Source of the DNA: Photobacterium iliopiscarium
Lineage (GTDB): Bacteria; Pseudomonadota; Gammaproteobacteria; Enterobacterales; Vibrionaceae
Assembly (NCBI RefSeq): GCF_003026395.1
Contig: NZ_PYOO01000001.1
Span: forward strand, 682,001 to 746,000
Direction of reading: 5' to 3'
Length of the DNA stretch: 64,000 nt
Shown: positions 34,138-57,830 of the stretch, piece by piece
How the letters are laid out: every line of letters begins with the position of its first letter
How positions within the stretch are numbered: position 1 is the stretch's first letter
Position numbers and translations under genes: made by a program
Notes under the pieces: model-generated
The model's input: only the letters and a program-made list of their open reading frames with translations
The model's database searches: none
What the model was told of the DNA's origin: nothing

Positions 34138-34785
34138 ATGCATGAATTGACAGAAAGTGATTATGATATTCTTCACGCTATGGAAAATATTGTTGATGGT
34201 ATTGCGGCAATGTGGGGGGAGCATACTGAAGTCTTATTGCATTGTTTAGATTCCCGCCATCCGTCAATTATGAAAATTGCCAATGGACATATTACGGGAC
34301 GTGAAGTTGGTGCACCAATCACCAATATTGCATTAGTAAAGTTAAATGAAGGCAAAGATGTTTCTGATGCTTATATTACTAAAGCGCCGGATGGTAAAAT
34401 GTTACGTTCATTAACAACAGTGATCCGTAATAAGCAGCAGCAAGCGATTGGTTTACTCTGTGTTAATTTTAATTTAGACGCACCATTTCAATCTATGATC
34501 CATAGTTTAATGCCAACAATTGGTACTTATTGTGATCATGGTGTTACCGCAGAAACATTTGCGCGTAATAGTGATGAAATGATGCATAGTTCGATTGAAA
34601 ATGTTCGTGAGCAGGTAACGAGTGATAGTTCGATCCCTCCCTCAAAGAAAAGTCGAGAAATTGTAACGCGATTACATGATCTTGGTATTTTTGATCTCAA
34701 AGACAGTGCTCAAATAGCAGCAAAAGGGTTGGATATTTCCATTCATACTATTTATCGCTATTTGCGAGAAATACGTGCAAATTAA
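34138..34785 (+). CDS. YheO-type transcriptional regulator (PAS-like + HTH)
   Basis: A cytoplasmic DNA-binding regulator of 215 residues. Residues about 1-120 form the YheO PAS-like sensor domain (HTEVLLHCLDSRHPSIMKIANGHITGR region, with GLLCVNFN). Residues about 150-215 form the HTH_22 helix-turn-helix (SREIVTRLHDLGIFDLKDSA, then ISIHTIYRYLREIR). Members of this family (for example DauR) respond to small molecules such as D-amino acids, but the ligand here cannot be inferred. AAGG lies a few bases before the ATG. It stands alone with a terminator downstream, 245 bp before the giant GEVED gene in the same orientation. Control of that gene is possible but not shown. Confidence 0.88.
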   Translation: MHELTESDYDILHAMENIVDGIAAMWGEHTEVLLHCLDSRHPSIMKIANGHITGREVGAPITNIALVKLNEGKDVSDAYITKAPDGKMLRSLTTVIRNKQQQAIGLLCVNFNLDAPFQSMIHSLMPTIGTYCDHGVTAETFARNSDEMMHSSIENVREQVTSDSSIPPSKKSREIVTRLHDLGIFDLKDSAQIAAKGLDISIHTIYRYLREIRAN

Positions 34786-35030: not shown

Positions 35031-38000
35031 ATGGAAAAGATGAAAATTATCCGTAGAGTATTAATGCTTGTTTGCTTTTGTGGCGGGTTGTTGTTCAACA
35101 CCTCGATTGCTCAGGCTCAACAGTGTTCTCAAAGTTACGCTTCACCGACAACTTCTGGCGGTAATTACTATTTTGATGGTGATGGCGGTAATGGCTGGGG
35201 AACCCGAAATATCGGGGTTTATAATACCAATTTAACCGGCGGTACTGGCTCTGGTGGTCGAATAATTATTAGTGCCAATTGGGGGTGGAACAACGGTAAT
35301 CAGTGGACTAGCCGTGGTGATTTTACAGAAACAATCAGGATACGGGTTAAGGTTAATGGAACTACCGTTGCTGAATTAGTGACCCCAAGTGATAGCCAAA
35401 ATAATGCAACTTTATCGTCACAAGGTGGCGCTTCAATGTTGAGTGGTGGCGGTAATGTTGGTGTAACAAGTTTTGGTCAATATCCTCATAGTTCACAAAT
35501 ATTATTACCTTCTTGGATGACATCGATTACCAGTATTCAAATTGAAGGAACCCAAACACCAGCATCGGGTGGTTCATCAGGCGGAGCGGGTGATGACGGT
35601 GGTGTAAGAGTTAATACCTCTGGTTATGCGTGTAACTTCGAAGCAACAGATGCACCAAGTAGTTATGGCGTTGCTCGTCATAATGTCGATTTAACCGGAA
35701 TTAATTTGCGTTTTGGGACGAATGTTAGTTTTGAAACTGCAAATCGCAATAGTGCATTAGCAAATTCAGATACTTTTGATGATGGTATAACTGGTTTTCC
35801 TCAGTCTGAAATTGATGCCGGCACAGGGGCCGTTTCAGTTTCTGCTAGCGTTTATAACAATACTGGCTCACCGCGTACATTTGTTGGCTGGGTTGATTGG
35901 GATCAAGATAATGCCTTTCAAGCTGATGAAGGTGTCGCGATAACGGTTCCTGCTGCGGGCTCTTCTAATGCAGATTGTACTAATACATCAGGATCTAACT
36001 TTACGTGTAATGTCGATTATATTGTTGATGTGGCAGATCGAAGTAATACTGGATATTTTTTCTCTCGGTTTAGAATCTCAAATGCGGCATTAACGACGTC
36101 AACAATTTCAACCACAGTTGATAGTGGTGAAGTGGAAGATTATCGATTCTGTATTGGTTGTTTTGATATTAGCGGTACGGTTTATTTAGATGAAAATGGC
36201 GACAGTGATATTTCCTCTGATAGCGTAACGCCAAATGAAGTAATAGTAAGACTTTATCGAGATGATGATAATGATGGTGTGCCGAGTGCGGGCGATACTT
36301 ATCTACAACAAGTGACTACCGCAAGTGGCGCTTATTCTTTCACTGAACTACCGATTGATACATATTTTGTCGCAACAGCACCACCGACGAATAGCACTGC
36401 GATTTCCGAGCAAACTTATGCGGCCAGTAATACCTATACCAATGCTTTTTGTGATAGCAATGGTGATGCAACCTCAGGTGATACACCTTTAATGGCTTCT
36501 GGCGCTTGTTATGGTGGTATTGATGGCGATCGTGCTGATGCAATCACCAATTCAACCACGCGTGAACACATATCTAAGGTTGATTTATCATTTACTTCAA
36601 CCAATCAGACTAATGTTGATTTTGGTTTCTCATATAACGTTGTTACTAATACCAATACATCAGCGCAAGGTTCTTTAAATCAATTTATTATTAATGCCAA
36701 CAGAATTGTTGGCGCTAATGAAATGCGTTTTGTACCAACAGTTCCTGCAAACGATACTGATCCTGCTAGCGATTGGTGGGTTGTTTCTCCAACGACCTCT
36801 TTAACCACAATAACGGGCACCAATGGCGCAAATACTATCATTGATGGTACGGCATACAGCAATGCTGACGGTACAACGATCATCGATTCAAACGCTGGTA
36901 ATTATTCAGAAGTACAAACCGTCGGTAGCTCTGATGGATGTAGTGTTGAAACCATTCCTGCATTAGCAAAACCTGAATTACAAATTGATATGCCAACTAA
37001 CGCCAGTGCTTATGCCGCTGAATTATTAATTATTAATGCGGATAATACTACAGTACGAAATGTCTCTCTGACGGGTGGTTCTTTAGGTATTAATATTTAC
37101 TCGGCGGGCATTACTGACACCTTAATTGAGCAAAACTTAATTGGTATTGATCCTGCGGGTAATGATGCGGTTATTGGACAAGAAACCTGTGGTACATCAT
37201 TAGGGTGTGCGGGTATTGCGATTGCAAATGCAGGTAATGGCTCGCTTAATGGTGACAGTGGTATTATTCGTTATAATGCAATAAAAACAGCGCATAATAA
37301 TATCACCTTAAATAATCTAAATAGCCAAACCAATGTTGTTAATTGGCAAGTAATACAAAATCAATTATTGGGTTCAACCTCGACCACAGCAACACCGTAT
37401 CACAATGTTTATATTCGTTACGGTGTGCCTGCTTATCTTAATATTGCTGGTAATATAATGCGTGATGCAACCAGCGATGCAATATATCAACGTAATACAT
37501 CGAATGTTGATTTATTCCAAACTATCACCAGTAATAACATTCAAAATGCGGACGATAATGGAGTGCATTTCCAAAGTGGTCAGTTATCGATAATCGAATG
37601 TAATATTATTCATAATAATGGTGATTCAGGGGTTTCTATTGATGGTAATACCAATATTGAAGGGTATTTAATTACTAAAAATAGTTTTGATAATAATACT
37701 GATAATGCCATTGACCTTCATAATCTCGCAACGGGTGAAGGCGTTTCACTAAATACTGATTTATGTAATAACGACACGGGCACAGGTGCCAATAATAATG
37801 TAGCTCGCCCACAAATTACTTATGCTTTTTTAGAAGGCGCAAATCTACGTGTTATTGGTGATATGTGTGCCACGGGTGAATTTACTTTTGAAGTCTATAA
37901 AGCGAGTGTTGGTACCGGTGAATTGGGCAGTGATGGGTTAAATGCAGGTGAAGGCTTAACATATTTAGGCAGCATTACGAGCCAATCAGGTTCAACATTT

Positions 38001-41000
38001 GATAGTTTATTTGCAACGTCGAGCATTAATGTTGGCGATGAAATTACTGTCATTGCTCAACGTACGACAACGGGTGGGAGTGGTGAATTACAAGATACTT
38101 CAGAATTTAGTGCCAATATTGTTGTTGATGTTGATAACAAAGACTGGGGTGATGCACCTGATACATCGATGTCAACCGCAATGGGTGATTACCAAACATT
38201 AAGAGCTAATGGTGGTGCCAACCATATTGTTATTGATGGTGATACTGATAATAACCCCGATCTGTTTTTAGGGGTGTTATTAGATACTGATATTGATGGG
38301 CAGCCTACTACTATCGCCGATGGTGATAATTTAGTTGATCTTGCTGATGAAGATGGCGTGACTGCGAATGGTATTTATGTGCTCAATCGTGACCGCGATA
38401 TTGAGATCACAATTGGTAAGGATCCTGATTATGCGGGTACTAGCTTCCATATTTATGGCTGGATTGACTGGAACCGAGACGGTGATTGGGATGATGCAAA
38501 CGAACAGATAATTAGTAATACAACAGCCACCGTTGGTATGACAACTTATACCATAACGACGCCTGTGAATGCTATTTTAGGCAATACCTATGCGCGTTTT
38601 CGGTTATGTTCAACCAATGATTGTAATACGCCCAATGGCCCAAGTATTGACGGTGAGGTCGAAGATTATGGTGAAGTGATCATCAGTATTGATTTCGGTG
38701 ATGCGCCAGATACCGGGGTCGGTATTGGGACGGGAAATTATCGAACCACGTTAGCAGATGATGGCCCTCGTCACTCTATTGATGATGACTTATTCTTAGG
38801 GACCAATGCAACAGATACTGAAGTTGATGGCTTACAAAACGTTACCGCCTCTGGTGATAATTCAGACGGTATTGATGATGAAGACAGTTTATTAATTCAA
38901 CCGTTAACCAGTGGCGCAACGGTTTATAATACGCAAACAACGGTGACGAATACTTCTGGTGCTGATGCTTATTTATATGCATGGTTAGATGTGAACCGTG
39001 ATGGTGAATTTGATCGTGATGAGTTTATTTCAAATGGTGCAGGTCCAGGTGGCGCGATAGTTGTTGCTAATGGTGCAAGTGCAACCGCGATGCCATTATC
39101 TTGGGGGACAATTACACCACCGACCAATAATACCACGGTATATTTGCGTACCCGTTTATCGCCGGTTGCACTAACTGATGCTGTGACAGGGGCTGTTGAA
39201 GATCCACGCTCTTATGGTTATGTTGATGGTGGTGAAGTCGAAGATTACGCACTGCAAGTTGCTGATCAAGATTTTGGTGATTTACCAGATAGTTTTGATA
39301 CGTTAGGACTTAGCGGCGGTCCTTACCATGGTCTAAGTAATATCAGTAATCTCTATATTGGTAATACAACTATTGATAGTGATGGAGATGGTCAACCAAC
39401 GCCAAATGCGGATGGTGATGATCTCACTGGCAGTGATGATGAAAATGCCTTTAGTACTCCAACCCCTATTTTACCGTTAACAGCGACCAATTATTCTGTA
39501 CAAGTGTCAGTTCGTAATAATACTGGTGTTGATGCTTACCTTTATGGTTGGTTAGATTGGAATCAAAATAACCAGTTTGAAGCGGCAGAATATGTTGCAG
39601 TAACAGTACCAACAGGTACAACAGTATCATCACCTATTACATTAACGTTTACGGGTATTTCAGGACAAAGTGATGGTAATGCAGCACTGCGTTTACGTTA
39701 TACCACCGCAGGGTTAGCTAATACAGGTTGGGGCGGTGCTGCACCTGATGGTGAGGTCGAAGATCATTATGTTCTTGTTGGTAGCTATGATTTTGGTGAT
39801 GCGCCAGATACTGGCGTAGGTGTTGCTGCTAATAATCAACGTACATTATTGAGTGATGATGGCCCTCGTCATGGTCTTAACAACCAACTGTTCTTCGGTG
39901 CCGCTATTGATGCTGAGCAAGATGCAAATAATCCTGCCAATAGTGCTGATGGTGATGATCTTGATGCCAATGGTGATGATGAAGATGGCGCGCTGTTAAT
40001 TCCACTTCATTCAAGTGCAACGTCATATGATTTACCAGTTACGGTTACCAATAATACTGGTAGTGACGCATATATTTATGCATGGATTGATTTTGACCGT
40101 ACAACAGGTTTTGATCGCGATGAATTTGCTGGTGGCGCAGCGGGAGTTCCGATAACCGTACCGACAGGCACCAACAATGGTAACGTCACTATTTCATGGA
40201 ATAGTTTTCCTGGTATTGCCATTAATACTGATGTCTATATTCGTTTACGTTTAACCTCTGATGTATTAACTGATTCAGCGACAGGCACTGCCGAAGATCC
40301 GCGTTCATTTGGTATTGCCACTGATGGTGAAGTTGAAGATTATTATTTACGGGTTGATACCTATGATGGTGGGGATGCGCCAGATAGTTACGATACGTTA
40401 TATACCAGCAATGGTCCGTCGCATTATCACAATAATCTCAACTTGTATATTCGTGATGCAACTCATGACAATATTCATGATACCGACGGCCAACCAACGC
40501 CAAATGGTGATGGTGATGATAACGATGGAACAGATGATGAAAATGCGGATTCTCTAACGCGTATTCCATTATTAGGGGTATTAGATACTACCTATACCTT
40601 AGGTGTGCCACTTTATAATGGAACAGGTGCCGATGCTCATCTTTATGCTTGGATTGATTTTAACCAAGATGGTGATTTTGCAGATGCTGGTGAATTTACA
40701 TCATTAGAAAATCTTGTAAATAGTACCAATACTTCAGCACAAACAACACCAACAACCGAATTAACTTGGACGGGTATTTCAGGGTTAACTCAAGGTAGTA
40801 CGTTTGTTCGTCTTCGTTTAACCAGTGATATTTTAACGGCCGATGATTGGGGTGGTATCGCTTTAAATGGTGAAGTCGAAGATCATCAAATATTTATTGG
40901 TGATTTTGATTTTGGTGATGCACCAGATACCGCAAACGGAGTGAGTGCGAATAATTATCGGACTAACTTTAATGATCAAGGTGCTTACCATGGTTTAGAT

Positions 41001-44000
41001 GCGGCTGTTTATTTAGGTGCTGCCGCGCCAGATACTGAAAATAATGCTAATACACCAGCCATATATGCATTAGGTGATGATCAAGATGCGAACGGTGATG
41101 ATGAAGATGGTGTCTTTATTTTACCGCTACACAATACCGCAACGACTTATGCTCTTCCGGTAACAGCAACCAATAATAGTGGCGCTAATGCTTACCTTTA
41201 TGCGTGGATTGACTTTGACCGCAATGGTCGATTCGACCGTGATGAATTTGTAGGAGGCGCGGCTGGTTCTCCAATCACAATAGCAACAGGAACAACAAGT
41301 GCCACACTTGATGCCATTTGGGACAGTTTTCCAGGTATTGCAGTGAATACTGATGTTTATGCCCGATTCCGTATTACTACTGATTTATTGTCCGATTCAG
41401 TGACAGGTACAACGGAAGATCCTCGCTCTTATGGTGGTGTTACAGATGGTGAAGTTGAAGATTATTATATTCGTGTTGATACCTATGATGGTGGTGATGC
41501 GCCAGATACATATGACACGTTATACCTAAGTGATGGTCCTGCCCATTATCATGTTAATGCCAACCTTTATATTCGTAGTGCAACCCATGATGATGCCCAT
41601 GATACCGATGGTTTGCCAACAGTAGGCGTTGATGGTGATGATAATGATGGTGTTGATGATGAAGATGTTGATTCCTTAACAAAGATTCCATTGCTCGGTG
41701 TTTCAGATACGACATATACGTTAGGAGTTCCGCTTTATAATGGAACTGGCGTTAATGCTAATCTTTATGCATGGATTGATTTTAACCAAGATGGTGATTT
41801 TGCTGATGCGGGTGAATTTACCTCACTAGAAAACATCATTAATGGTACCAATACCTTAAATCAAACGGCACCGACAACTGAGTTAGTTTGGAATGGTATT
41901 GGTGGCTTAACCCAAGGCAGTACTTATGTTCGTATTCGTTTAACTAATGACACGTTAACGGCTAGTGACTGGGGCGGTTTTGCTCTTAATGGGGAAGTAG
42001 AAGATCATCAAATCTTTATTGGTGATTATGATTTTGGTGATGCGCCAGATACTACAAATGGCGTTGCAGCTAATAATTATCGAACCACGTTAAATGATGG
42101 CGGCCCTTATCATGGTCTGAATAATAATTTGTATTTAGGTGCTGCGGTACCTGATACAGAAAATGACGCCAATGCACCTGCGATACTGGCATTGGGTGAC
42201 GATGATGATGTCAATGGTGATGATGAAGATGGTGTCTTTATTATGCCATTACATAACTCAGTGACTAATTATGGGGTGCGCTCGGTTGTAACCAATAATA
42301 CAGGCAGCGATGCATATATTTATGCATGGATAGATTTTGATCGTAATGGTCGTTTCGATCGTGATGAATTTGCGGGTGGTGCTGCGGGCGCGCCGATAGT
42401 TGTAAATTCAGGCGTATCTAATTTTGTCGCCAATATTAATTGGAATAGTTTCCCTGGTATTGCTAATAACACCGATGTTTATGTTCGTGTTCGTTTAACC
42501 AGTGAGTTATTAAGTGATGCGGTTACAGGAACAACGGAAGATCCACGTTCATTTGGTGGTGCAGTTGATGGTGAAGTTGAAGACTATTATTTACGTGTCG
42601 ATACCTATGATGGTGGTGATTTACCTGAAAGCTACCAAACATCATACAGTAACGGCGGTCCAGCTCATTATCATACCAATGCAAATTTATATATTCGAGA
42701 TGCAACCCATGATAATAATCATGATGAAGATGGACAACCAACGGCTGCTGCAAATGGTGATGATAACGATGGCACTGATGATGAAAATGCTGACAGTTTA
42801 GTTCCACTGCCTATTTTAACATTGACGGATACCAGTTATACCGTAGGGGTTCCGCTTTATAACGCAACAGGGGCTGACGCAAATCTTTATGCTTGGTTAG
42901 ATTTAAATCAAGATGGTGATTTTGATGATGCTGGCGAGTTTGCTTCACTTGAAGGGCTTGTTAATGGAACGAATACTTCAGCACAAACAGCCCCAACGAC
43001 TCAGTTAACATGGGCGGGTATCAGTGGACAAACAACAGGTGATATGGCGTTACGCCTTCGTTTAACATCTGATATTTTAACGGCGACAGATTGGGGTGGA
43101 ATTGCCAAAAATGGTGAAGTTGAGGATCATTATGTTTATGTAGGCGATCCCGATTTTGGTGATGCGCCAGATACCTCTTCAACAACGGCGGCGAATAACT
43201 ATCAAACACTTTATAACTATTTTGGCCCTTATCATTTATTCGTAGATGGTTTGTATATTGGTAATACGGCGCCTGATATTGATGATGGAACATTACAAGA
43301 TATAACCGCAACTGCCGATGATCTTGATGCAACCGATGATGAAGGACCAATTACATTACCGCCATTATTTAATGGTATGGATTCATACAAAATTACTGTG
43401 CCAGTTACAAATACGACGGGTAATATTGCCACCTTGGCAGTATGGATCGATTTCAATCGAAATGGTCAATTTGATGATAGTGAAGGACAAATTGCAGTTG
43501 TGCCAACGGGATCAAGTAATACGCCAGTAGAACTTGAGTGGGCGACGATTCCTGCCGTTACCAATAACACAACCTCATTTGTGCGTTTACGTTTAACTAA
43601 TCGTTTAGTCGGGCAAATCAGTGATATTTCATCATTAGGCGGTGAAGCGGGTGGTGAAGTTGAAGATCATAGTATTTTCTTTGGTCTACAAGATTTAGGT
43701 GATGCGCCTGCGAGTTATCTAGTTGATCCTTTATTAGGTGGTCCTCACCATATTATTACCAATAACACCAACTTGTATTTAGGTACTTCAACTATTGATG
43801 GTGATGAAATTGTATTAGCGTCTGTTGATGCTCTTGGTGATGATAATAATGGTAGTGATGATGAAAATGGTACCAGCCAACCATTAACTTCAATTCCGAT
43901 TAACGGTTCAAGCCATAGCTTAGAGCTCACAGTACGTAATACAACAGGTAATGATGCCTATCTAGCGGGTTGGATTGACAGTAACCGTAATGGTATTTTT

Positions 44001-50000: not shown

Positions 50001-53000
50001 TATGACTACTACGAAGATCAAAGTGCGTTCTTAGCGCGTAATAATTGGTTAGCAGATGATGCCAATGTGAATGGCAATTGTTCAAATACAGAGCTTGATT
50101 TTGATGATTTACCAGATTCAGGGGCAGGCACTGCGACAGGTGATTATGTAACAGCCTTCCAATTTGATGGTCCTCGTCACCAACTTGGTGCCAATATATT
50201 TATAGGTACAGCGCCAGATGGTGAAACTGATGCGTATGCAACGGTTGCAGCCAATGGTGATACTGATGATGGTGTCGAGATATTACCGTTATCGAGTACC
50301 GCTACTCAATATTCAGTGCGTGTTACAGCCACCAATACTACGGGTACCGATGGTAATGTATATGCGTGGGCTGATTGGAATAAAAATGGTGATTTAGAAG
50401 CATCTGAAATGCAGACTATCGCTGTTGCTGATGGTGAAACAGATATCGTAAAAGTGCTGACATGGCCAATCACAACGGCTATTACCAATGGTGATACTGT
50501 TTATGTTCGTGTGAGAATTTGTAATACCACTACCGACTGTAGTACTGCTATTGGTGAAGCGACCAATGGTGAAGTTGAAGGGTATGCGATTTCTGTTTCT
50601 GATAATGTAGATTTTGGTGATGCGCCAGATACGTATTTAACCTTAGCGGGAAGCGGAGGTCCATTCCATTATGGTGATACGTCGTTATTCCTTGGCGATC
50701 AAGCCAGTGATGGTGAGCCTGATGGTATACCAACAGCAACGGCAGATGGCGATGATACCAATGCCTCTCCTGATGATGAGGATGGCGTTAATGTCATTTC
50801 ACCGATTAACATTAATGCGAGTGATTATAGTCTTACCGTTGAAGCGTCAAATACTTCAGGATCAGTTGCTTACCTCGCGGTTTGGATTGATTTTAACCAA
50901 AGTGGTACCTTTGAGGCTGGCGAAGGGCAAATTCAAATCGTACCTGATGCCTCTTCAGAAGTGCAATATGTATTTAATTGGACAGGGCTAACAGGATTAA
51001 CGGCAGGAGTTACCTATTCACGTATTCGTATTACTAATGATGTGTTAACAACATCGTCAATGGGTGGAATCGCCACTAATGGTGAAGTTGAAGATCATCT
51101 TATTGTCATGGGTACATTTGATTTAGGTGATGCGCCAGATACCTATGGAACCGATCGTACTAATGCCAGTGGTGAGGGTATAGGCCCAATGCATATTCCT
51201 AGTGCAACCATTTTCCTTGGTACCAATGCTACGGATGCTGAAGCTAACGGCTTTGTAGATGGTATCGATGATAATGGCCTTGCTCAAGATGATGACTTCG
51301 CGGGTGTTAATGATGAGGATGGTGTAACTATTCCGGCTGTAATGTCGGCAGAGCCAAGTAGTACAGAAACCTTAACGGTACGGGTACATACTGATGTTGA
51401 TGCCACTGTTTATGCATGGTTAGACTTTGATCGTGATGGTGTGTTTGATGTGGCGACTGAAGCAGCAACGCCAGTGAGTATTACGGCAGTGAATGACGAT
51501 ACTGACGTTACATTAACCTTTACGACACCGAATGATGTGCTTGATGGTGGTAGTTATGTTCGTGTTCGTATTTGTTCAACCACAACGGTATGTTCAACGC
51601 CTCATGATGTAGCGAATGACGGTGAAGTTGAAGATCATCGTATCATTCTTGATGTTGCTTATGATTATGGTGATGCGCCTGAAACCTTAGGATATAACAC
51701 CTTATTTACTAGTAATGGTGCGCGTCATCGCATTGGTAATACGACATTAAGCTTGGGTTCTGTTATTGGTGACGGTGATAGTGACGGCTTTGGTGACGGT
51801 GTTGATGATAATGGTGATGCAACCGATGATGATACGTTAAATATCAATGATGAAGATGGTATCTCTACAGTTGGTTTCTTATCTCAAGGTGCTACGAGCT
51901 TTACTCAAGATGTGATTTGTAATGATCATAATGGCACCGCAGATATGGGTGCAAATGTCTATGCTTGGGTTGACTTTAATGCTGATGGTGATTTTGCCGA
52001 TAGTGGTGAATTTGCTCTAGCGGCTTGTACTGATGCCGATGCAGTTACTGATGGTAGTGCGTCATTAAGTTTCCCTTCAATAAATACCACTACTGTTGCA
52101 ACTGAAACCTACATGCGTCTTCGTATTACATCTGAAACATTAACTGTTGATGATTACAACGGCACGGCTATTAATGGTGAAGTTGAAGATCATCAAATTC
52201 CAATTTTAAAAGGACCAATTCAACCAATAACCCCTGCGGTTGTGATAGCGCAATGTTTGAATTCTGGCAATATTGAAGGTGTTTCAGGTACACCTGTTGA
52301 TATTACGGGTGTGGTTAATACTTATTACCCAGCAACGGCAAATGCATTAACGGGCACGAATAGTATTACGCTTGGTACGGCAACAGGTAATACGACAGAG
52401 ACCTTAAATCCAGGTGATCGGGTGATGATCATTCAGATGCAAAATGCCTCAATTGATACCACTAATACCGATAGTTATGGTAATGGTGTTGCTGGTGGGT
52501 ATGCCAGTGGTTGGGTTGATTACGGCACAACGGGTCAATATGAATTTGCGACAGTGGCTAGCTTTACCGATCCGACTTTAGTATTAAGTGAAAATTTAAC
52601 GAATAACTTTACTGCTGACGGAAATAGTTCTTTCCAAGTTGTACGTATTCCAATGTATGAAGATGCACGTTTAACTGGCACGGTTACGTCTGCTGACTGG
52701 GATGGTTCTAGTGGCGGTATTGTGTCGCTTTATATTAATGGCACTCTAGATCTTAATGGCAATATTATTGACGTTAACGGTAAAGGCTTCCGTGGTGGTA
52801 CAAAAAATACCGCCAATGGTATTGCGACCGGACTTAATTACGTTATGGCTGTAACCAATATCGATGGTGGTAAGGGTGAAGGTATTGCAGGAACCCCAGT
52901 GAGTCTTGGTGGTTTAGGCTATAGCGATGGTGATAATGGTATCGGCGCGCCAGCAAATGCTGGTGGTGGTGGTAACTTTAATTCTGGTGGTGGTGGTGGT

Positions 53001-56000
53001 GGTAACGTTGGCCCTGGTGGTAGAGGCGGCAATTATTCAAGTTCAACCAGTTTTTATCCGGGAGAACCAGGTACAGGTATTGGGCTGGCTGATCCTACTC
53101 GTTTAACTCTTGGTGGCGGTGGCGGTGCAGGTCAAGAAAATAATGGTGTCGGTCGTGATGGCGCTGATGGTGGTGGTATCGTATATATCACAGCTAATAC
53201 AGTGACAGGAACAGGTACTATTAATGCCAATGGTAATACTTCACCAAATGCTGGTGGCGATAGCCCCGGTGGTGGTGGTGCGGGTGGCTCTGTATTGCTA
53301 TACAACACCGATGGTACATCTCTATCAACACTAACCGTTAATGCTGTCGGTGGTAATGGTGCAAGTTCATCTGGTGGTCATGGTCGCTCTGCTGGTGGCG
53401 GTGGTGGTGCAGCTATCTTTAATAGTTCAGGTGCTACTGCTAATGTCAGTGCAGGTACTGCAACATGTTCTGGGCAGTTATTATGTGGCGATGACGGTGG
53501 CGATGGTCAAGTGATCAATACTGCGACATTACCAACAGCGCCTGCCGTGTGTAGCTTTGAACTGTCTGGTTTTGTCTTTGATGACAGCAGCACTGCACCA
53601 TCAGTTAATGGTATTAAAGATGTAGCAGAAGCGGGTCTTGGTATTGCTGTACCTGTGATTGCTTATAACACCACAACCAGTGAGTGTTTTGTTGCCACAG
53701 CGGATGCAATAACGGGTGCTTACTCAATGACTATTCCTGGTGGAAACTATGAAGTTTATGAAGCAGCACTTGAAACTGATTTAGTTAATCCAACCTGTCC
53801 ACCAACCATTGGAACGCTAGATCCAAATGCTGGTGGTTATGCTGGTGCGACAATTGGTGATCCAATCAATGTTCATTCTAGCTCACCTAACATTCAATCA
53901 GTTGCGTTAACAACGGATGTGAGTGATGTTAACTTTGCTGATTTCACCATTGTGACGTTCCCAACTTGTAGCAGTGATGGTTATTTGTTGCGTAATAGCC
54001 CAACCGATATTACTAGTATTAATTTGGCTATGGGTACAGTAACACCGTTATATGATGATGTTTTGCCAACAGGCACTGGTGTCTTTGGTGGTACGGGGTA
54101 TAACTTTATTACCAATACACTTATCGGCGATAACATTAAAAATAAAGACACTGTTTTAATGGTTGATGGTGCAGGATCTGCCTTCGTGTTACCAATTACA
54201 GGAAGTACGATGGCAATCAATAACTATAACAGTGGTGATATCGATGATAACGGGGTGCTATTGCTGATGAATAATAGTGGCACCAGTATGTATCGTATTG
54301 ATGTTAATCCAAATAGTAGTACTTATTTGCAGCAAATAGGTGAGATTACAGTCTCTGCTCCAGTGATGGCCGATATGGCGATTAATCCTATTGATAATAT
54401 GCTTTATACCTTAACGCCTACGGGAAATTTAGTGAAATTTGATCCTATAACAGGGACGCGAACTAACTTGGGTTACGTTGGTGTTAATGGCGAAACTGGT
54501 ACTGGATGGGGCGCGGTATACTTTGATGATCAAGGCTTCTTCTACGCATCTCAAAATCCAAATCCTGGCCGTATTGTTCGAATTGATATTTCAGACCCAA
54601 GTCTTCCATCTGGTGGTTATAGTGCAGTCAACTTCACTCAGATGAATGCTGCAACCAGCCAAAATGATGGTGCGCGTTGTCGTTTCGCTCCACTGCCGTT
54701 AGATTTTGGTGATGCGCCTGAAACCACTGGTTATCCTACAACATTGGCTAATAATGGCCCTCGTCATTTAACTGAAGAAACAGGGTTATATATTGGTTCG
54801 GTAGCGGCAGATAATGAAAATGATGGTCAGCCAGATGCTGATTATGCAGGTGATGATAATAACGGTACAGCTCCTGATGATGAAGATGTATTAAGTGCAT
54901 TAATTACTGCCGATGTATCAAGTCCTACTGTGACGCAAACCGTTCCTGTGGTAAATACAACAGGCAGTGATGCGTATTTATCTGGTTGGATTGACTTTGA
55001 TAATAGCGGCTCATTTGATGATGATGAAAGTGCATGGATTATTATTCCAAGTGGTGCAACATCAGCAACATTGACATGGAATAATGTGGGCACTTCTGGG
55101 GCAAATATCAGTAACAGTGTGGTGGGTTATCGTTTACGTATTAGTTCTGATTTTAATACAACAACAAATACGCCACTAGATGCTGATGGTAATGTCTTCC
55201 CAGATCCTATTGGGCCAGCACCTGATGGCGAGATCGAAGATTATCGAGTATTAGTGTCAAGCCTTAATGGTGATAATACTTGTGACATTATTGTTGAAAC
55301 CAAAGGTGATAATACCAGTGGTTATGATTTTGCGGAATTTGATCCAACCACCAATCCTGCCCAATTAAATAATATTGTGAGTCCTATTGTTATTAATGGT
55401 TATCCAAATGCTGAAAATATTAATGCTATTGGTTTTAATCGCCTAAGTGGTTTGTTTTACGGTACTTTTATTGATGGAAGCTCTACTAATGACGATGTGA
55501 TTTTATTTGTAACGGATCGTGATGGTACTGAATTTGTTTCTCTTGGTACGATACGATCTGATGGCGTACAGAGTATTATTCATTCGATACATGGAACCTC
55601 TAATTTTGCTAATAATCAAATATTATCTCGATTAGGCGGTAGTTCAAATATTAGTTATCCTGTTCGAGGTGATGTGTCACCTGATGGGCAGTATCTCTAC
55701 ATTATGAATGGGAATTGGGATTCTCTCGTTCGTATTGACTTAAATACTCAGACGTTTACGACGATCACATTGTCTTCAACACCAGCTATGGGTGGCGATT
55801 TCTCCTTCAGCTCGAATGACGGTATGTTATATGGTGTTGATCTACCAGGTGGTAACTATATTCAAATCAATCCAACTACAGGAGCGGTGACAATAAATCC
55901 TCTGAACTTCAACGGGTTACTTCCTGTGACGAATACCGGTAGTGCTGGGGCGGGGGGAACCATTATGGATGATGGTATTATGCTTTATGCCTTTGCTAAT

Positions 56001-57830
56001 GGTGGTGATCACGATACCGATGGTGATAATGCTCACGATCTGATTGATAAGACGGCAGTTTATCAATTGAATGTGATTACTGGTGAGTTGATGTTTGTAA
56101 CTGAAGGTATTGATGTCTCGGTTCAAGGTAATGATGCTGCTGGTTGTTACTACGCACGAGACTATGGTGATGCACCTATTTCTTACGGTGATGCTTTCCA
56201 TAATTACTCTGATACAGGCAATGATGGTGATGCTGCGCTTGATGGCGATCAAGATCTCACGTTGGGTGCTAATTGGGACAGTGAGTTTGTTAGTCAGTTC
56301 TCCCTTGATGCAACAGGCGATGATCTTCAAGCTTCTGATGATGAAGATGGCGTAACTCTTCCTGCTAGTATTACGGTTGCAACATCTACTCCAGTGACCG
56401 TATCTGTGCCACAAGCTGCGGGTTTCTTAAATGTATTTATTGATCTGAATGGCGATGGTGATTTTGCTGATGTTGGCGAGATGATTATTGAAGACCAATT
56501 GATTACAGCAGCCACAACGAATCTTGATTTCAATTTAGATGCAGGGCTTACCGCAGGTTATAACGGTGATACATTTGTTCGTTTCCGTTTATGTAGTACG
56601 GCAGCAACGTGTAATTCTCCAATAGGTGAAGCCGCTGATGGAGAGGTAGAAGATTATCAATTTGAGTTAATTAATCAGATTGTGCTCAGTGGTTTTGTGT
56701 TTGAAGATAATGGTATCTCGGGCGCAACCGCGGCTCATGATGGTATTTTTGATGGTGGTGAAGTTGGTATTGGTAATACAGTTGTGCGTGCTATTTATAA
56801 CGGCACAGGTGCTGGTGGATTTACAACTGGTGATGTTGTTGCAACAACGGTGACCTCGGGTGATGGTGGCTATCTATTAGTCGTACCAGTATCACTTGCT
56901 AATGAAAATCTTGTACTTGAGGTGGTTAAACAAGCTGATTGGATTGATATTAGTGAAGCTGATGTGTCAGCGCTTACTCAAGTCACCAATACCAGTGTTA
57001 TTGATAGTCAGATGTTAATTAATGCTGCTGCGGGTGATTATTTAACGGGCTTAAACTTCGGTAAAGTGAAAGAACCGCGTATGGAGCCTGATAACTTTAC
57101 TGAAACTGAGCCGGGTAAAGGAGTGCTCTTTAGTCATAAATTTACAGCTGAAACCGCAGGTAGTGTTAACTTTACCATTATGAATATCTCTACGGAGCCC
57201 GCAAATGACGGTTGGAGCGCAATACTGTATCAAGATAATGACTGTAATGGTTCAATTGATGGGGCTGATAGTCAGATAGCTAACCCTGTCGCTGTAAGTG
57301 GTGATAGTAGTGTTTGTTTAATCAGTAAAGTATTTGTTCCTGCTGATGCACCATTAAATGCGCTTTATCATTATGATATTCAAGCTGATATGACGTTTGA
57401 GGATAGTGTTGCAACAGGTCATGATGTTACTCGACAAGTGATAGATACCGATACTGTTCGTGCTACTTTCGCGGGTGCTGGTGAGTTGAAGCTTAATAAA
57501 ACAGTGGAAAATCTGACTCAAGCTACTGGTGTAAGTACCAGTAATGACGGTAAACCGGGTGATATTTTAGAATATTCTATTGAGTTTACCAATGTGGGGA
57601 GTGGGCCAATAACAGAAGTCACAATATTTGATACTACACCTGCTTATACTGACTTAACGTTAGCGATTGATTGTACATCTGGTGTTCTACCTGCTGGTTT
57701 AACATGTAATGTATTAACACCAAATGGTGCAAATATTGCGGGTTATGAAGGTGAAGTACGCTGGGAAATGACCGGAGCCTTAAATCCTAGTGAAACTGGA
57801 ACTGTTATTTATCAAGTTACTATCAAATAG
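35031..57830 (+). CDS. Giant GEVED-repeat secreted protein, 7599 aa
   Basis: No named homologue recognised as a whole. A Sec signal peptide (residues 1-29, cleavage after AQA) is followed by a small N-terminal domain and one GEVED module. Next come an SdrD-B-like domain (about 377-535), a beta-helix region (about 537-1030) and a long GEVED array (1038-4750). After that: an inserted domain (about 4750-5020), four more GEVED modules, a Gly-rich domain (about 5730-6175) and an SdrD-B-like domain. A propeller-like region, single GEVED modules, a further SdrD-B-like domain and a DUF11-like tail complete it. I count 27 GEVED-type motifs (23 GEVED, 3 GEIED, 1 GEVEG). The protein is very acidic (Asp-rich). 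No LPXTG, T9SS C-terminal domain, RTX repeat or membrane anchor is seen. The ATG at 35040 is an alternative start. A surface or matrix adhesin is likely. Confidence 0.9.
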   Translation: MEKMKIIRRVLMLVCFCGGLLFNTSIAQAQQCSQSYASPTTSGGNYYFDGDGGNGWGTRNIGVYNTNLTGGTGSGGRIIISANWGWNNGNQWTSRGDFTETIRIRVKVNGTTVAELVTPSDSQNNATLSSQGGASMLSGGGNVGVTSFGQYPHSSQILLPSWMTSITSIQIEGTQTPASGGSSGGAGDDGGVRVNTSGYACNFEATDAPSSYGVARHNVDLTGINLRFGTNVSFETANRNSALANSDTFDDGITGFPQSEIDAGTGAVSVSASVYNNTGSPRTFVGWVDWDQDNAFQADEGVAITVPAAGSSNADCTNTSGSNFTCNVDYIVDVADRSNTGYFFSRFRISNAALTTSTISTTVDSGEVEDYRFCIGCFDISGTVYLDENGDSDISSDSVTPNEVIVRLYRDDDNDGVPSAGDTYLQQVTTASGAYSFTELPIDTYFVATAPPTNSTAISEQTYAASNTYTNAFCDSNGDATSGDTPLMASGACYGGIDGDRADAITNSTTREHISKVDLSFTSTNQTNVDFGFSYNVVTNTNTSAQGSLNQFIINANRIVGANEMRFVPTVPANDTDPASDWWVVSPTTSLTTITGTNGANTIIDGTAYSNADGTTIIDSNAGNYSEVQTVGSSDGCSVETIPALAKPELQIDMPTNASAYAAELLIINADNTTVRNVSLTGGSLGINIYSAGITDTLIEQNLIGIDPAGNDAVIGQETCGTSLGCAGIAIANAGNGSLNGDSGIIRYNAIKTAHNNITLNNLNSQTNVVNWQVIQNQLLGSTSTTATPYHNVYIRYGVPAYLNIAGNIMRDATSDAIYQRNTSNVDLFQTITSNNIQNADDNGVHFQSGQLSIIECNIIHNNGDSGVSIDGNTNIEGYLITKNSFDNNTDNAIDLHNLATGEGVSLNTDLCNNDTGTGANNNVARPQITYAFLEGANLRVIGDMCATGEFTFEVYKASVGTGELGSDGLNAGEGLTYLGSITSQSGSTFDSLFATSSINVGDEITVIAQRTTTGGSGELQDTSEFSANIVVDVDNKDWGDAPDTSMSTAMGDYQTLRANGGANHIVIDGDTDNNPDLFLGVLLDTDIDGQPTTIADGDNLVDLADEDGVTANGIYVLNRDRDIEITIGKDPDYAGTSFHIYGWIDWNRDGDWDDANEQIISNTTATVGMTTYTITTPVNAILGNTYARFRLCSTNDCNTPNGPSIDGEVEDYGEVIISIDFGDAPDTGVGIGTGNYRTTLADDGPRHSIDDDLFLGTNATDTEVDGLQNVTASGDNSDGIDDEDSLLIQPLTSGATVYNTQTTVTNTSGADAYLYAWLDVNRDGEFDRDEFISNGAGPGGAIVVANGASATAMPLSWGTITPPTNNTTVYLRTRLSPVALTDAVTGAVEDPRSYGYVDGGEVEDYALQVADQDFGDLPDSFDTLGLSGGPYHGLSNISNLYIGNTTIDSDGDGQPTPNADGDDLTGSDDENAFSTPTPILPLTATNYSVQVSVRNNTGVDAYLYGWLDWNQNNQFEAAEYVAVTVPTGTTVSSPITLTFTGISGQSDGNAALRLRYTTAGLANTGWGGAAPDGEVEDHYVLVGSYDFGDAPDTGVGVAANNQRTLLSDDGPRHGLNNQLFFGAAIDAEQDANNPANSADGDDLDANGDDEDGALLIPLHSSATSYDLPVTVTNNTGSDAYIYAWIDFDRTTGFDRDEFAGGAAGVPITVPTGTNNGNVTISWNSFPGIAINTDVYIRLRLTSDVLTDSATGTAEDPRSFGIATDGEVEDYYLRVDTYDGGDAPDSYDTLYTSNGPSHYHNNLNLYIRDATHDNIHDTDGQPTPNGDGDDNDGTDDENADSLTRIPLLGVLDTTYTLGVPLYNGTGADAHLYAWIDFNQDGDFADAGEFTSLENLVNSTNTSAQTTPTTELTWTGISGLTQGSTFVRLRLTSDILTADDWGGIALNGEVEDHQIFIGDFDFGDAPDTANGVSANNYRTNFNDQGAYHGLDAAVYLGAAAPDTENNANTPAIYALGDDQDANGDDEDGVFILPLHNTATTYALPVTATNNSGANAYLYAWIDFDRNGRFDRDEFVGGAAGSPITIATGTTSATLDAIWDSFPGIAVNTDVYARFRITTDLLSDSVTGTTEDPRSYGGVTDGEVEDYYIRVDTYDGGDAPDTYDTLYLSDGPAHYHVNANLYIRSATHDDAHDTDGLPTVGVDGDDNDGVDDEDVDSLTKIPLLGVSDTTYTLGVPLYNGTGVNANLYAWIDFNQDGDFADAGEFTSLENIINGTNTLNQTAPTTELVWNGIGGLTQGSTYVRIRLTNDTLTASDWGGFALNGEVEDHQIFIGDYDFGDAPDTTNGVAANNYRTTLNDGGPYHGLNNNLYLGAAVPDTENDANAPAILALGDDDDVNGDDEDGVFIMPLHNSVTNYGVRSVVTNNTGSDAYIYAWIDFDRNGRFDRDEFAGGAAGAPIVVNSGVSNFVANINWNSFPGIANNTDVYVRVRLTSELLSDAVTGTTEDPRSFGGAVDGEVEDYYLRVDTYDGGDLPESYQTSYSNGGPAHYHTNANLYIRDATHDNNHDEDGQPTAAANGDDNDGTDDENADSLVPLPILTLTDTSYTVGVPLYNATGADANLYAWLDLNQDGDFDDAGEFASLEGLVNGTNTSAQTAPTTQLTWAGISGQTTGDMALRLRLTSDILTATDWGGIAKNGEVEDHYVYVGDPDFGDAPDTSSTTAANNYQTLYNYFGPYHLFVDGLYIGNTAPDIDDGTLQDITATADDLDATDDEGPITLPPLFNGMDSYKITVPVTNTTGNIATLAVWIDFNRNGQFDDSEGQIAVVPTGSSNTPVELEWATIPAVTNNTTSFVRLRLTNRLVGQISDISSLGGEAGGEVEDHSIFFGLQDLGDAPASYLVDPLLGGPHHIITNNTNLYLGTSTIDGDEIVLASVDALGDDNNGSDDENGTSQPLTSIPINGSSHSLELTVRNTTGNDAYLAGWIDSNRNGIFDEIEGRVDVIPTTQNGVYTYSFDSNQMQNLSVGNTFIRFRLTTDPLTTTDVGGRASDGEVEDFMIQIGGQDLGDLPDTSSATVANNYQTNLTFGGPYHNVAAEPNLYLGTVAPDVDGATPQSTDATGDNVTGIDDENALADIALPDLDAGDNYDTNITVTNSSTSTAYLYAWIDWDRDGNFESDEIAQASINSLGSTQAINNGVITIPASTGTETYTVTFTTDTALVDARTYGVRLRLTTELLTDGDVTATVDERSLGAAQDGEVEDFFVTAENTDLGDLPDSYLTLPVSGGPAHYYVSNLYLGANNIDDDDQAYPDAAALGDDNTGVDDETGLVEPLTTVATSITSYSVDLAVYNYSGSNATLVAWLDTNQDGSFSADEVVDDLNVVATSTPFSNATFASDNLPTSSNNLTNKVTLTWNGISGLAQGSMGLRIRVANTSLTANDWGGIAQGGEVEDYVVYVGQFDFGDAIDSAANIGVNNYRTTLSDNGAYHGIDNTILMGALLDSESDANDPTTAFAQGDNITGSNDEDGAFIPPLNNTNTTYNIPVTVTNNSGSKGYLYAWIDFDRNGRFDRDEFFGGNTAEPREINTGNTNTTTNLGWNTFPGIATGTDVYIRIRFTTDLLADTENGAIVEDSRSYGGASDGEVEDYYIRVETYDGGDAPDTYDTLYTSGGPYHRHNTANLYIRSNNHDNGHDQDGQPSNGAVGDDTDGIDDENADDLTPFPILAVADTTYTVGVPLYNATGSDAHLYGWIDFNQDGDFADAGEFTELTSIVNATNTSTSATPTTQLTWTGISGLTAGSTYMRLRLTNSVLTANDWGGEAINGEVEDHQIYIGALDFGDAEDGVAGTAAGSGDYRSRLADDGPYHVINNNIYIGNSVPDSEADANPSSGPIKADGDDTTGSDDEDGVTLRALDNSPVPSSYTAAVNVTNNTGQDATLYGWIDWDRNGQFGSDEVAEVIVPTGTNGSVDITWNSFTGIATGFTLTRFRLTTDGLVNGNSGAAEDTRSLFGASDGEVEDHLIYIGDQDMGDAPDTYQTLSASDGPFHGRSNSATVYLGTATIDADTDGQPTSDASGDDNNGSDDENGLSQPLANIAIAATSYSVPVTLRNSELASNPATLVAWLDTNQDGEFSAAEVVSTINYDTTGDAPFSTDNIPYFNGVKTAVLTWNGISGLTNGSMALRIRISYLTDLTANDWAGQALDGEVEDYMVFVGEFDYGDAPDEAANVGANNYRTTQSGSGPFHGVDSNLFMGIVPDADNDAQTPTIALQASGDDITASDDEDGLILPPLTTTQGSYSANAMVTNNTGSDAYIYAWIDFDGNGRFDRDEFVDNGTGTGGAIVTSTGLTNSSVELDWTATTGLAAGQNRYMRVRITSELLADSATGVNEDPRSYGGVSNGEIEDHYLLSDSVRYDGGDAPDSYLVRFADGGPIHPISTTLRLGTATTDGEDADGSSDALLDDITATADEDGISLPTLALSATSYTLDANVLNNTGANADLIVWIDWNQNGVFDAAEGQVISATSNGTNTVYNPSWNSLTPVTAGYYFGRARLAPNSDGLTVSDAGGTATSGEVEDFRISVLTAQDWGDAPDAYHTLATNNGANHAPSTNLYIGTTAADADVDGQPSVAADGDDNNATADETAPTFPILSPSMTTWSFDTTVTNNTGGAATLHAWVDHDLDGEFQLDEYTSVAVADGATDLPISVAWINLSNAEGGNVGDSYVRLRLTTDTLVDDGATAIDERSQGAATDGEIEDHYHKVTFHMLIQQDSGAIEYTLPNTANNTVALMENNYGVGYVTYDLLVPTDNITTDFTLRDYQFILYQSDLAGGVSPDTTAEIDALLDYRNQGGVLLSLVEGDRFADATTTRINAYMGQQVGFPGTSATGFAGYAGPTTLPRFHPSDGPGALSTQATVATTGTLSTITGIDHRSVIYTLPTVTGSCNNVDAMAWLIPYDPTTTGGYGYPRTHTGPWVGSGERQFYFTPNYYSSNLTPYQALMDFVYDYYEDQSAFLARNNWLADDANVNGNCSNTELDFDDLPDSGAGTATGDYVTAFQFDGPRHQLGANIFIGTAPDGETDAYATVAANGDTDDGVEILPLSSTATQYSVRVTATNTTGTDGNVYAWADWNKNGDLEASEMQTIAVADGETDIVKVLTWPITTAITNGDTVYVRVRICNTTTDCSTAIGEATNGEVEGYAISVSDNVDFGDAPDTYLTLAGSGGPFHYGDTSLFLGDQASDGEPDGIPTATADGDDTNASPDDEDGVNVISPININASDYSLTVEASNTSGSVAYLAVWIDFNQSGTFEAGEGQIQIVPDASSEVQYVFNWTGLTGLTAGVTYSRIRITNDVLTTSSMGGIATNGEVEDHLIVMGTFDLGDAPDTYGTDRTNASGEGIGPMHIPSATIFLGTNATDAEANGFVDGIDDNGLAQDDDFAGVNDEDGVTIPAVMSAEPSSTETLTVRVHTDVDATVYAWLDFDRDGVFDVATEAATPVSITAVNDDTDVTLTFTTPNDVLDGGSYVRVRICSTTTVCSTPHDVANDGEVEDHRIILDVAYDYGDAPETLGYNTLFTSNGARHRIGNTTLSLGSVIGDGDSDGFGDGVDDNGDATDDDTLNINDEDGISTVGFLSQGATSFTQDVICNDHNGTADMGANVYAWVDFNADGDFADSGEFALAACTDADAVTDGSASLSFPSINTTTVATETYMRLRITSETLTVDDYNGTAINGEVEDHQIPILKGPIQPITPAVVIAQCLNSGNIEGVSGTPVDITGVVNTYYPATANALTGTNSITLGTATGNTTETLNPGDRVMIIQMQNASIDTTNTDSYGNGVAGGYASGWVDYGTTGQYEFATVASFTDPTLVLSENLTNNFTADGNSSFQVVRIPMYEDARLTGTVTSADWDGSSGGIVSLYINGTLDLNGNIIDVNGKGFRGGTKNTANGIATGLNYVMAVTNIDGGKGEGIAGTPVSLGGLGYSDGDNGIGAPANAGGGGNFNSGGGGGGNVGPGGRGGNYSSSTSFYPGEPGTGIGLADPTRLTLGGGGGAGQENNGVGRDGADGGGIVYITANTVTGTGTINANGNTSPNAGGDSPGGGGAGGSVLLYNTDGTSLSTLTVNAVGGNGASSSGGHGRSAGGGGGAAIFNSSGATANVSAGTATCSGQLLCGDDGGDGQVINTATLPTAPAVCSFELSGFVFDDSSTAPSVNGIKDVAEAGLGIAVPVIAYNTTTSECFVATADAITGAYSMTIPGGNYEVYEAALETDLVNPTCPPTIGTLDPNAGGYAGATIGDPINVHSSSPNIQSVALTTDVSDVNFADFTIVTFPTCSSDGYLLRNSPTDITSINLAMGTVTPLYDDVLPTGTGVFGGTGYNFITNTLIGDNIKNKDTVLMVDGAGSAFVLPITGSTMAINNYNSGDIDDNGVLLLMNNSGTSMYRIDVNPNSSTYLQQIGEITVSAPVMADMAINPIDNMLYTLTPTGNLVKFDPITGTRTNLGYVGVNGETGTGWGAVYFDDQGFFYASQNPNPGRIVRIDISDPSLPSGGYSAVNFTQMNAATSQNDGARCRFAPLPLDFGDAPETTGYPTTLANNGPRHLTEETGLYIGSVAADNENDGQPDADYAGDDNNGTAPDDEDVLSALITADVSSPTVTQTVPVVNTTGSDAYLSGWIDFDNSGSFDDDESAWIIIPSGATSATLTWNNVGTSGANISNSVVGYRLRISSDFNTTTNTPLDADGNVFPDPIGPAPDGEIEDYRVLVSSLNGDNTCDIIVETKGDNTSGYDFAEFDPTTNPAQLNNIVSPIVINGYPNAENINAIGFNRLSGLFYGTFIDGSSTNDDVILFVTDRDGTEFVSLGTIRSDGVQSIIHSIHGTSNFANNQILSRLGGSSNISYPVRGDVSPDGQYLYIMNGNWDSLVRIDLNTQTFTTITLSSTPAMGGDFSFSSNDGMLYGVDLPGGNYIQINPTTGAVTINPLNFNGLLPVTNTGSAGAGGTIMDDGIMLYAFANGGDHDTDGDNAHDLIDKTAVYQLNVITGELMFVTEGIDVSVQGNDAAGCYYARDYGDAPISYGDAFHNYSDTGNDGDAALDGDQDLTLGANWDSEFVSQFSLDATGDDLQASDDEDGVTLPASITVATSTPVTVSVPQAAGFLNVFIDLNGDGDFADVGEMIIEDQLITAATTNLDFNLDAGLTAGYNGDTFVRFRLCSTAATCNSPIGEAADGEVEDYQFELINQIVLSGFVFEDNGISGATAAHDGIFDGGEVGIGNTVVRAIYNGTGAGGFTTGDVVATTVTSGDGGYLLVVPVSLANENLVLEVVKQADWIDISEADVSALTQVTNTSVIDSQMLINAAAGDYLTGLNFGKVKEPRMEPDNFTETEPGKGVLFSHKFTAETAGSVNFTIMNISTEPANDGWSAILYQDNDCNGSIDGADSQIANPVAVSGDSSVCLISKVFVPADAPLNALYHYDIQADMTFEDSVATGHDVTRQVIDTDTVRATFAGAGELKLNKTVENLTQATGVSTSNDGKPGDILEYSIEFTNVGSGPITEVTIFDTTPAYTDLTLAIDCTSGVLPAGLTCNVLTPNGANIAGYEGEVRWEMTGALNPSETGTVIYQVTIK
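36160..38141 (+). other. SdrD-B-like domain and right-handed beta-helix of the giant protein
   Basis: From about 36163 the protein reads ISGTVYLDENGDSDIS and continues as an SdrD B-type domain (VRLYRDDDNDGVPSAGD, then YSFTELPIDTYFV). From about 36640, SAQGSLNQFIINANRIVGAN resembles the entry of CSLREA-type beta-helix proteins. It is followed by short Asn-rich turns (NNITLNNLNSQTN; ITSNNIQNADDNGVHFQS) typical of PbH1 repeats. This is the likely exposed, possibly glycan-binding, head segment. Confidence 0.6.
38142..49280 (+). repeat. Array of 20 consecutive GEVED modules (coding)
   Basis: The array begins at DWGDAPDT and ends at GEIEDHYH, with an average module of about 557 bp (186 aa). Each module runs: D-x-GDAPD opener; GGPxH segment; LYLG; GDDxDGxDDED acidic loop; DAYLYAWIDFNRDGxFD (calcium-loop-like); TYVRLRLT; GEVED closer. 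Two module types alternate in the best-preserved part. Equivalent codons of the TYDGGD-type module start at 40361, 41483 and 42605, exactly 1122 bp (374 codons) apart. Confidence 0.85.
49281..50090 (+). other. Non-GEVED inserted domain of the giant protein
   Basis: About 270 residues between GEVED modules 21 and 22. It has alternating beta/alpha character and reads FHMLIQQDSGAIEYTLPN, FILYQSDLAGGVSPDTTAEI, then LDYRNQGGVLLSLVEGDRFA. This resembles a Rossmann-like or class I glutamine-amidotransferase-like fold of the DUF4350 kind, without clear catalytic residues. Its function is unknown. No other copy was seen in this window. Confidence 0.5.
50091..52209 (+). repeat. Second GEVED array, four modules (coding)
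   Basis: The array starts at ELDFDDLPDSGAG and ends at GEVEDHQIP. It holds four modules of about 530 bp, the first closing with the variant GEVEGYA. The acidic loops and DWNKNGD/DFDRDGV calcium-loop-like motifs are retained. Confidence 0.8.
52210..57830 (+). other. C-terminal domains of the giant protein
   Basis: In order: a beta/Gly-rich region (52210-53555) with GGGGNFNSGGGGGGNVGPGG; an SdrD-B-like domain (53556-53960); a propeller-like region (53961-54699; MAINPIDNMLYTLTPTGNLV) of the DUF6923 kind; GEVED module 26 (54700-55260); a second propeller-like region (55264-56155); GEVED module 27 (56156-56675); an SdrD-B-like domain (56676-57065). Last is a tail (57066-57830) whose end, LNKTVENLTQATGVSTSNDG and onwards, looks like a DUF11 conserved repeat. 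The block 53556-55260 has a paralogous block in the next gene. Confidence 0.6.

Follow-up and report, generated by a model that had tools for sequence, protein, structure and literature searches.

The window analyzed here is a 64,000-nucleotide stretch of the Photobacterium iliopiscarium genome (assembly GCF_003026395.1, contig NZ_PYOO01000001.1, positions 682,001 to 746,000 of the forward strand), and it carries the gene for a GEVED-repeat protein of 7,599 residues that we call giant 1. Its gene belongs to a cluster that encodes varying giant cargo proteins and precedes a conserved five-gene core, whose central member has an outer-membrane-barrel-like C-terminal half (BARREL). The giants end in a common C-terminal domain (CTD) that is very probably a dedicated signal linked to the barrel operon. 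This domain lacks the final strands of the fold that it resembles, and strands of that kind stand at the start of BARREL and of two stalk proteins of the core, D1096 and D919. Judging from these sequences, we lean toward a reading in which donor-strand complementation in trans, together with an intermolecular isopeptide bond, keeps the giants attached to the outer membrane.

We surveyed 52 genomes of the genus, in 17 of which the C-terminal part of BARREL is present, and read the cluster, or its single-contig part, in all 17. Forty-eight of the 52 giant-like open reading frames (ORFs) end in a CTD of about 115 residues whose terminal letters are YxVxI[KE]-like with at most one residue beyond. 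Of these, 45 are unbroken giants (the start of one is masked) and three are the downstream fragments of broken ones; the four ORFs without the domain are the upstream fragments of those three (in G010, G006 and G003) and one ORF of G038 that lies in a masked, open stretch. A profile built from 42 distinct CTDs (alignment A3) was run over the same 52 genomes and picked out exactly the 17 that have BARREL, the remaining 35 giving no match, co-occurrence being counted irrespective of phylogeny. The profile returned 79 rows at E < 1e-31 and nine weak ones (1.1e-4 to 8.9e-4), and the strong rows include cargo distant from the cluster, with lengths of ~2,288, 1,516 and 831–870 residues, as well as tiny proteins made of a signal and a CTD. 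An earlier note on this DNA had seen no recognizable sorting signal in giant 1, a view that the domain common to all unbroken giants overturns. It had also left the route across the outer membrane unexplained; for the localization, the tie within the genus between CTD and barrel operon now gives a lead.

The CTD has the features of an immunoglobulin (Ig)-like CnaA-type fold of the DUF11/CLIPPER kind (PF01345), including a putative isopeptide Lys and a putative catalytic Asp, and the final strands bearing the Asn that would complete the domain are absent. On its own, the giant 1 CTD scores 20.8 bits against DUF11, below the curated cut-off of 24.6 bits, and covers positions 10–82 of the 114 in the model. 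In an alignment with the solved CLIPPER domain (PDB 9IFR), the Asn falls beyond the point that matches the CTD end. No significant match to PDB sequences came from the CTD, from the BARREL profile or from an internal DUF11 domain of BARREL; the CTD profile brought up TasA and CotN at E near 1 at best. A regular expression for complete DUF11 domains was of little use, finding none in one run and five in the other (three barrels and two in Psychrobacter).

Strands resembling the missing ones are found in the core. After their signals, D1096, D919 and BARREL each begin with an AGTxIxNxAxxTY...SNxxxxxV-like pattern that resembles the last two DUF11 strands, Asn included. With the BARREL piece appended, the giant 1 CTD scores 28.7 bits against DUF11 in place of 20.8 and covers model positions 10–109 in place of 10–82; a control piece from the N terminus of giant 1 gives 22.8 bits and ten shuffles of the BARREL piece give 20.4–24.2 bits. 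Among the 48 giants with a CTD, the true start is unreadable in four, and a regular expression finds a donor-like start in none. D1096 and D919, for their part, combine a donor-like start with Asn and an acceptor end with Lys and Asp in all 17 genomes (G022 and the D1096 start of G038 by eye). From this distribution of starts and ends, the giants would be acceptors only, the stalks both donors and acceptors, and BARREL a donor only. The CTD and the starts of BARREL and the stalks look like two halves of one split DUF11/CLIPPER domain.

The conservation of the three residues provides the main argument for chemistry in trans, namely that Lys and Asp are kept in a domain without a partner, with the Asn in a neighboring protein. 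Of the 42 distinct CTDs, 38 carry both Lys and Asp, and the other four, all from G002 or G039, have Leu and Glu instead. The BARREL Asn is present in 15 of 17 genomes and is His in exactly G002 and G039, where D1096 and D919 still retain the Asn at the start and Lys and Asp at the end. The barrels of these two genomes are 94% identical to one another and 49–54% identical to those of three other genomes compared; because the two are close, we count the loss as one event. That single event ties three residues in two proteins together and singles out the giant–BARREL pair. Some acceptors lack the Asp. The 164-residue core protein small164 has Gly in its place in 16 of 16 cases, and eight of 12 lone-CTD proteins inspected by eye have Ser, Ala or Thr. 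One such protein, of 142 residues, lies ~276 kb from the cluster in the same assembly (L120:5861-6289; G000:C1:440861-441289, minus strand), with Lys kept and Asp changed to Ser, and comparable proteins occur in 11 further fetched loci. A lone CTD of G002 has Tyr at this position, and its counterparts in G003, G041 and G038 keep Asp. Acceptors without the Asp could bind a donor strand but not seal the bond.

In the mechanism that we propose, cargo would cross the inner membrane via Sec and present at its C terminus the incomplete Ig-like domain, with Lys and Asp in place and the Asn strands missing. The Asn-bearing strands at the start of BARREL, D1096 and D919 would complete this domain, and such complementation in trans is, to our mind, probable. 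A Lys–Asn isopeptide bond may then weld the cargo to BARREL in the manner of a natural SpyTag/SpyCatcher pair, a covalent step that we rate slightly better than even. The stalks could serve as covalent links or extenders, since donor start and acceptor end are found in the same protein. BARREL might double as the export pore, which we regard as possible and put somewhat short of an even chance. Being acceptor-like but without Asp, small164 may be a reversible placeholder, although we consider this role doubtful.

Several observations weigh against this proposal. Alignment support for the putative Lys is the weaker, which slightly lowers our confidence; some shuffles of the BARREL piece also stretch the DUF11 match, to model positions 100–112; and with the DUF7927 and DUF7619 models, two and one of the ten shuffles, respectively, outscore the real piece. 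The giants of G002 and G039 remain unbroken without Lys and Asp, and nine of the 12 lone-CTD proteins have been retained without the Asp (by eye). The last two points would fit a CTD that acts as a non-covalent sorting signal, similar to the C-terminal signals of the type IX secretion system (T9SS), and is recognized by the barrel machine; Lys, Asp and Asn would then serve in folding only, and the orphan strands would be ordinary first strands of the next domain. The extreme C-terminal position of the CTD in all unbroken cargo and its strict co-occurrence with BARREL likewise need no bond. However, Lys and Asp are kept across phyla in a partnerless domain, with Asn at the matching site of another protein, and the joint loss of Lys, Asp and the Asn of BARREL alone is not expected for folding residues. 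We therefore regard non-covalent sorting as unlikely, though it is the alternative that survives best.

Less probable still is that D1096 and D919 mainly capture CTDs into an extracellular covalent network, for which BARREL would be one anchor and export would run elsewhere, for example by type II secretion. The donor-like start and acceptor end of the stalks in 17 of 17 genomes would suit a head-to-tail polymer, and the D919 CTD, scored without shuffles, is completed best by the D1096 start (28.9 bits, as against 24.1 alone, 25.4 with the D919 piece and 25.1 with the control). Yet the loss of Lys and Asp in the G002 and G039 giants follows the Asn of BARREL and not that of the stalks, pointing to a pairing of giant with BARREL. 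An intramolecular bond, in which the CTD Lys joins an Asn of its own domain to form a stable end cap, finds candidates in N20 and N47, both invariant in 42 of 42 CTDs, and the DUF11 chemistry described in the portions of PMC12617251 consulted is intramolecular. The CLIPPER Asn nevertheless lies past the point where the CTD ends, and the covariation with BARREL would be left unexplained, so we give this reading little credence. An assembly artefact or a decaying gene, of which the broken giants of G003, G006 and G010 and a CTD frame containing a stop in G041 could be reminders, has a negligible chance of explaining giant 1, whose length is no collapse or frameshift of its own assembly because frames of 7,599 residues stand in four genomes (G029, G048 and G051 at 98.9%, 98.9% and 95.1% identity over the full length).

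The giant 1 ORF opens with ATG and runs over 7,599 codons (22.8 kb) without an internal stop. Its N terminus, MEKMKIIRRVLMLVCFCGGLLFNTSIAQAQQ, has a Sec-signal-like pattern, read from the translation by eye and not with a signal predictor. Scanned as two halves, the protein gave 16 and 11 matches to PF20009, and all 27 exceed the curated cut-off of 24.4 bits. At the nucleotide level the genome holds 31 such matches, 27 in giant 1 and four in the next gene, giant 2; the control search found none in 14 control genomes. Besides these repeats, there is an AgmC_N-like glycine-rich stretch and, near the C terminus, a DUF11-type repeat match of 23.9 bits, just below its cut-off of 24. The earlier note had read from the letters a single uninterrupted frame, a Sec signal peptide, 27 GEVED-type motifs and further domain types, and each of these holds, the last with both matches below their cut-offs. 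Its picture of a very long surface or matrix protein is likewise supported; the idea that GEVED is unusual here is not, as 33 of the 52 genus genomes have it. Five or more stretches are found only in the 17 BARREL genomes, and the remaining 16 have one or two each, in shorter ORFs of ~580–800 residues (e.g., G018:C12:564447-564674) without a CTD.

The survey across the genus, which the note had also called for, found orthologues of giant 1 and, adjacent to them, the conserved barrel operon. The order D1096, BARREL, OmpA, D919 is constant in 17 of 17 genomes, and small164 is present in 16 (the contig of G022 is cut). Upstream of this core, in 16 of the 17 stretches, lie variable giants, numbering from one in G009 to seven in G019, where one is on the opposite strand; of the seven giant-like ORFs in G003, two are fragments of a single broken frame. 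Related giants in other genomes of the genus have 7,227–7,233 residues, plus a single case of 8,123. The sole giant of G009 (L069, L084 and L085), with 1,999 residues, joins a giant 1-like start to a giant 2-like remainder, apparently through recombination between adjacent cargo genes. In the clusters of G003, G006 and G010, giant frames broken by a stop or frameshift persist as fragments.

The end of the window cuts the operon, and the core genes start just beyond position 64000 (Table 1). The start of the OmpA protein is lipobox-like when read by eye. Eight of the nine DUF11 matches in this genome at E up to 1 fall inside the cluster, and the ninth is a lone copy of the CTD. Of the 14 genomes whose upstream side was fetched, 12 carry the YheO-like regulator, a possible member of the system, ahead of the cluster; the stretches of G010 and G038 lack it. 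Farther upstream, at window positions 33667-33867, is a small frame that we take to resemble a cold-shock-domain protein. After D919, on the opposite strand (L011:7753-8874, minus), a 373-residue protein has MotX/AlgK-like (Sel1/TPR-type) matches below cut-off; it is found in 16 of 17 genomes (the contig of G046 ends earlier), is split in G006, and could belong to the system.

Table 1. Features of giant 1 and its operon; coordinates above 64000 are extended window coordinates.
Feature	Position	Strand	Basis or remark
YheO-like PAS/HTH regulator	34138..34785	+	just upstream of giant 1
Giant 1, 7,599-aa GEVED-repeat protein, cargo with acceptor CTD	35031..57830	+	ORF, profile matches, same-length orthologues
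Sec-type signal peptide region (codons 1–30 of giant 1)	35031..35120	+	read from translation; boundary approximate
27 GEVED (PF20009) matches, first to last	35880..56663	+	profile search
AgmC_N-like glycine-rich stretch in giant 1	52308..53459	+	NF047640, 183.7 bits, below curated cut-off 275; P0002 residues 1960-2343
CTD plus a few preceding residues, DUF11/CLIPPER-like, without the final strands bearing the isopeptide Asn	57453..57827	+	ends at stop codon
Codon of putative isopeptide Lys, CTD residue 16	57498..57500	+	alignment A3
Codon of putative catalytic Asp, CTD residue 60	57630..57632	+	alignment A3
Giant 2, 2,979-aa second cargo (DUF4347, 4 GEVED, L-type lectin, same CTD)	58347..64000, on to 67286 (L010:4347-13286)	+	
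small164, 164 aa, one DUF11-like domain	67744-68238	+	
D1096, 1,096-aa DUF11 stalk protein	68303-71593	+	
BARREL, 2,195 aa, DUF11 parts, outer-membrane-barrel-like C-terminal half	71730-78317	+	
OmpA lipoprotein, 184 aa, OmpA domain	78302-78856	+	
D919, 919-aa DUF11/NEW3 stalk protein	78874-81633	+	

Outside the genus, the apparent split-domain pattern recurs across several phyla. The BARREL profile, scanned over genome contigs, picked up 34 loci, of which 14 are in Photobacterium and 20 in others that include Thiotrichaceae, Leucothrix, Halomonas, Psychrobacter, Glaciimonas, Balneolaceae, Thermodesulfovibrionales and Gemmatimonas. Gene order is comparable in many of the 20; the more distant loci lack part of the core. 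The Asn strand starts BARREL in 16. The four exceptions are a cut locus (L111), one with another arrangement (L115) and two from Gemmatimonas (L116 and L119), where the barrel ends proteins of ~4,070–4,080 residues without an N-terminal donor strand. In the sequences inspected by eye from these loci, Lys and Asp are present in four of four cargo, six of six D1096-like and 12 of 12 D919-like CTDs, and Asp is absent from 12 of 12 small proteins. For 20 further loci, a regular-expression tally of the two residues picked up genuine and spurious matches alike and does not enter these counts. Among 369 sampled Gammaproteobacteria genomes, 58 match the BARREL profile, a few of the weakest over the Ig part only; of the 20 higher-scoring ones fetched, 18 have the Asn start and two (L157 and L158) have none, and in L163 the gene is split between a 775-residue start that carries the donor strand and a barrel ORF of 1,301 residues.

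If the proposal is correct, it would explain how Gram-negative bacteria can keep proteins of 5,000–8,000 residues on their surface in the absence of sortase, RTX/type I and T9SS signals, and it would supply a natural tag/catcher pair; two short protein fragments would then suffice to test the function of a recurring, unexplained gene cluster. Leaving the covalent step aside, the CTD as a label for the cargo of one barrel operon still delimits a class of secreted proteins that can be searched for. More tentatively, these loci might represent a widespread diderm display system with a split CnaA-type domain, an autocatalytic weld, a small Asp-less guard of the donor strands and a barrel exit pore. 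As far as the open-access literature shows, preprints aside, the display system is undescribed. Searches of that literature, with bioRxiv preprints outside their scope, did not find GEVED in Photobacterium, and no DUF11 giant outer-membrane secretion system was among the matches listed; in the papers matching at least three of isopeptide, donor strand, outer membrane and DUF11, DUF11 is mentioned in none.

Among known systems, T9SS places an Ig-like C-terminal domain on diverse large cargo and uses a dedicated, very large outer-membrane barrel, and the Photobacterium cluster shares both the terminal Ig-like domain on large cargo and the very large barrel. Neither half of giant 1 has an NCBIfam match to a T9SS C-terminal domain at E up to 1, nor does BARREL have a SprA-type one at E up to 0.01. 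Foldseek comparison of the BARREL model with SprA structures gave low-scoring rows (TM up to 0.15), and a PF14349 (SprA) search of the genome was silent, as was its control, making it uninformative. LapA and SiiE are giant repeat adhesins of Gammaproteobacteria that use type I secretion; the likeness lies in giant repeat proteins of this class and in the DUF4347 start of giant 2, whereas the Photobacterium giants end in the CTD instead. No type I secretion protein was among the seven proteins of this genome that were scanned, the extent of that search.

Chaperone–usher pili are built by donor-strand complementation, in which one strand is donated; here about two strands and a covalent seal are proposed. 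A profile comparison of BARREL with nine Photobacterium ushers was negative (hhalign probability of 0.7%), and the usher profile PF00577 gave nothing above cut-off in this genome, its sole sub-threshold match (E 0.39) lying inside BARREL. In structural comparison, unrelated barrels score nearly as high as ushers, and GH2 proteins head the Foldseek rows for the BARREL model, mostly through matches to its soluble Ig part. The sections consulted of PMC9715654, which treats chaperone–usher complementation as background, describe archaeal threads of Saci_0406 with donor-strand complementation by an N-terminal strand, a putative cap protein and inter-subunit isopeptide bonds that run from Asn57 to the N-terminal α-amine two subunits away. 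Complementation combined with an inter-subunit isopeptide bond is what we propose here as well; the threads differ in being an archaeal filament with no outer membrane and no giant cargo.

Close in domain content is the Acinetobacter adhesin B9T28_05395, the source of the 9IFR domain, which according to the sections consulted of PMC12617251 combines a CshA_NR2-like and a GEVED-like part with CLIPPER repeats and an OmpA-like anchor. The CTD is similar to CLIPPER in its Ig-like fold and in Lys and Asp. The CLIPPER bond, as described there, forms inside one complete single-chain domain, whereas in Photobacterium the domain is apparently split between the end of the cargo and the starts of other proteins; likewise, OmpA is a built-in anchor of the adhesin and a separate lipoprotein in the cluster. 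In SpyTag/SpyCatcher, as the parts consulted of PMC6539128 present it, engineering divided an isopeptide domain into two pieces, tag and catcher, which bond in trans, whereas the CnaA-like domain described here appears to have been split in nature.
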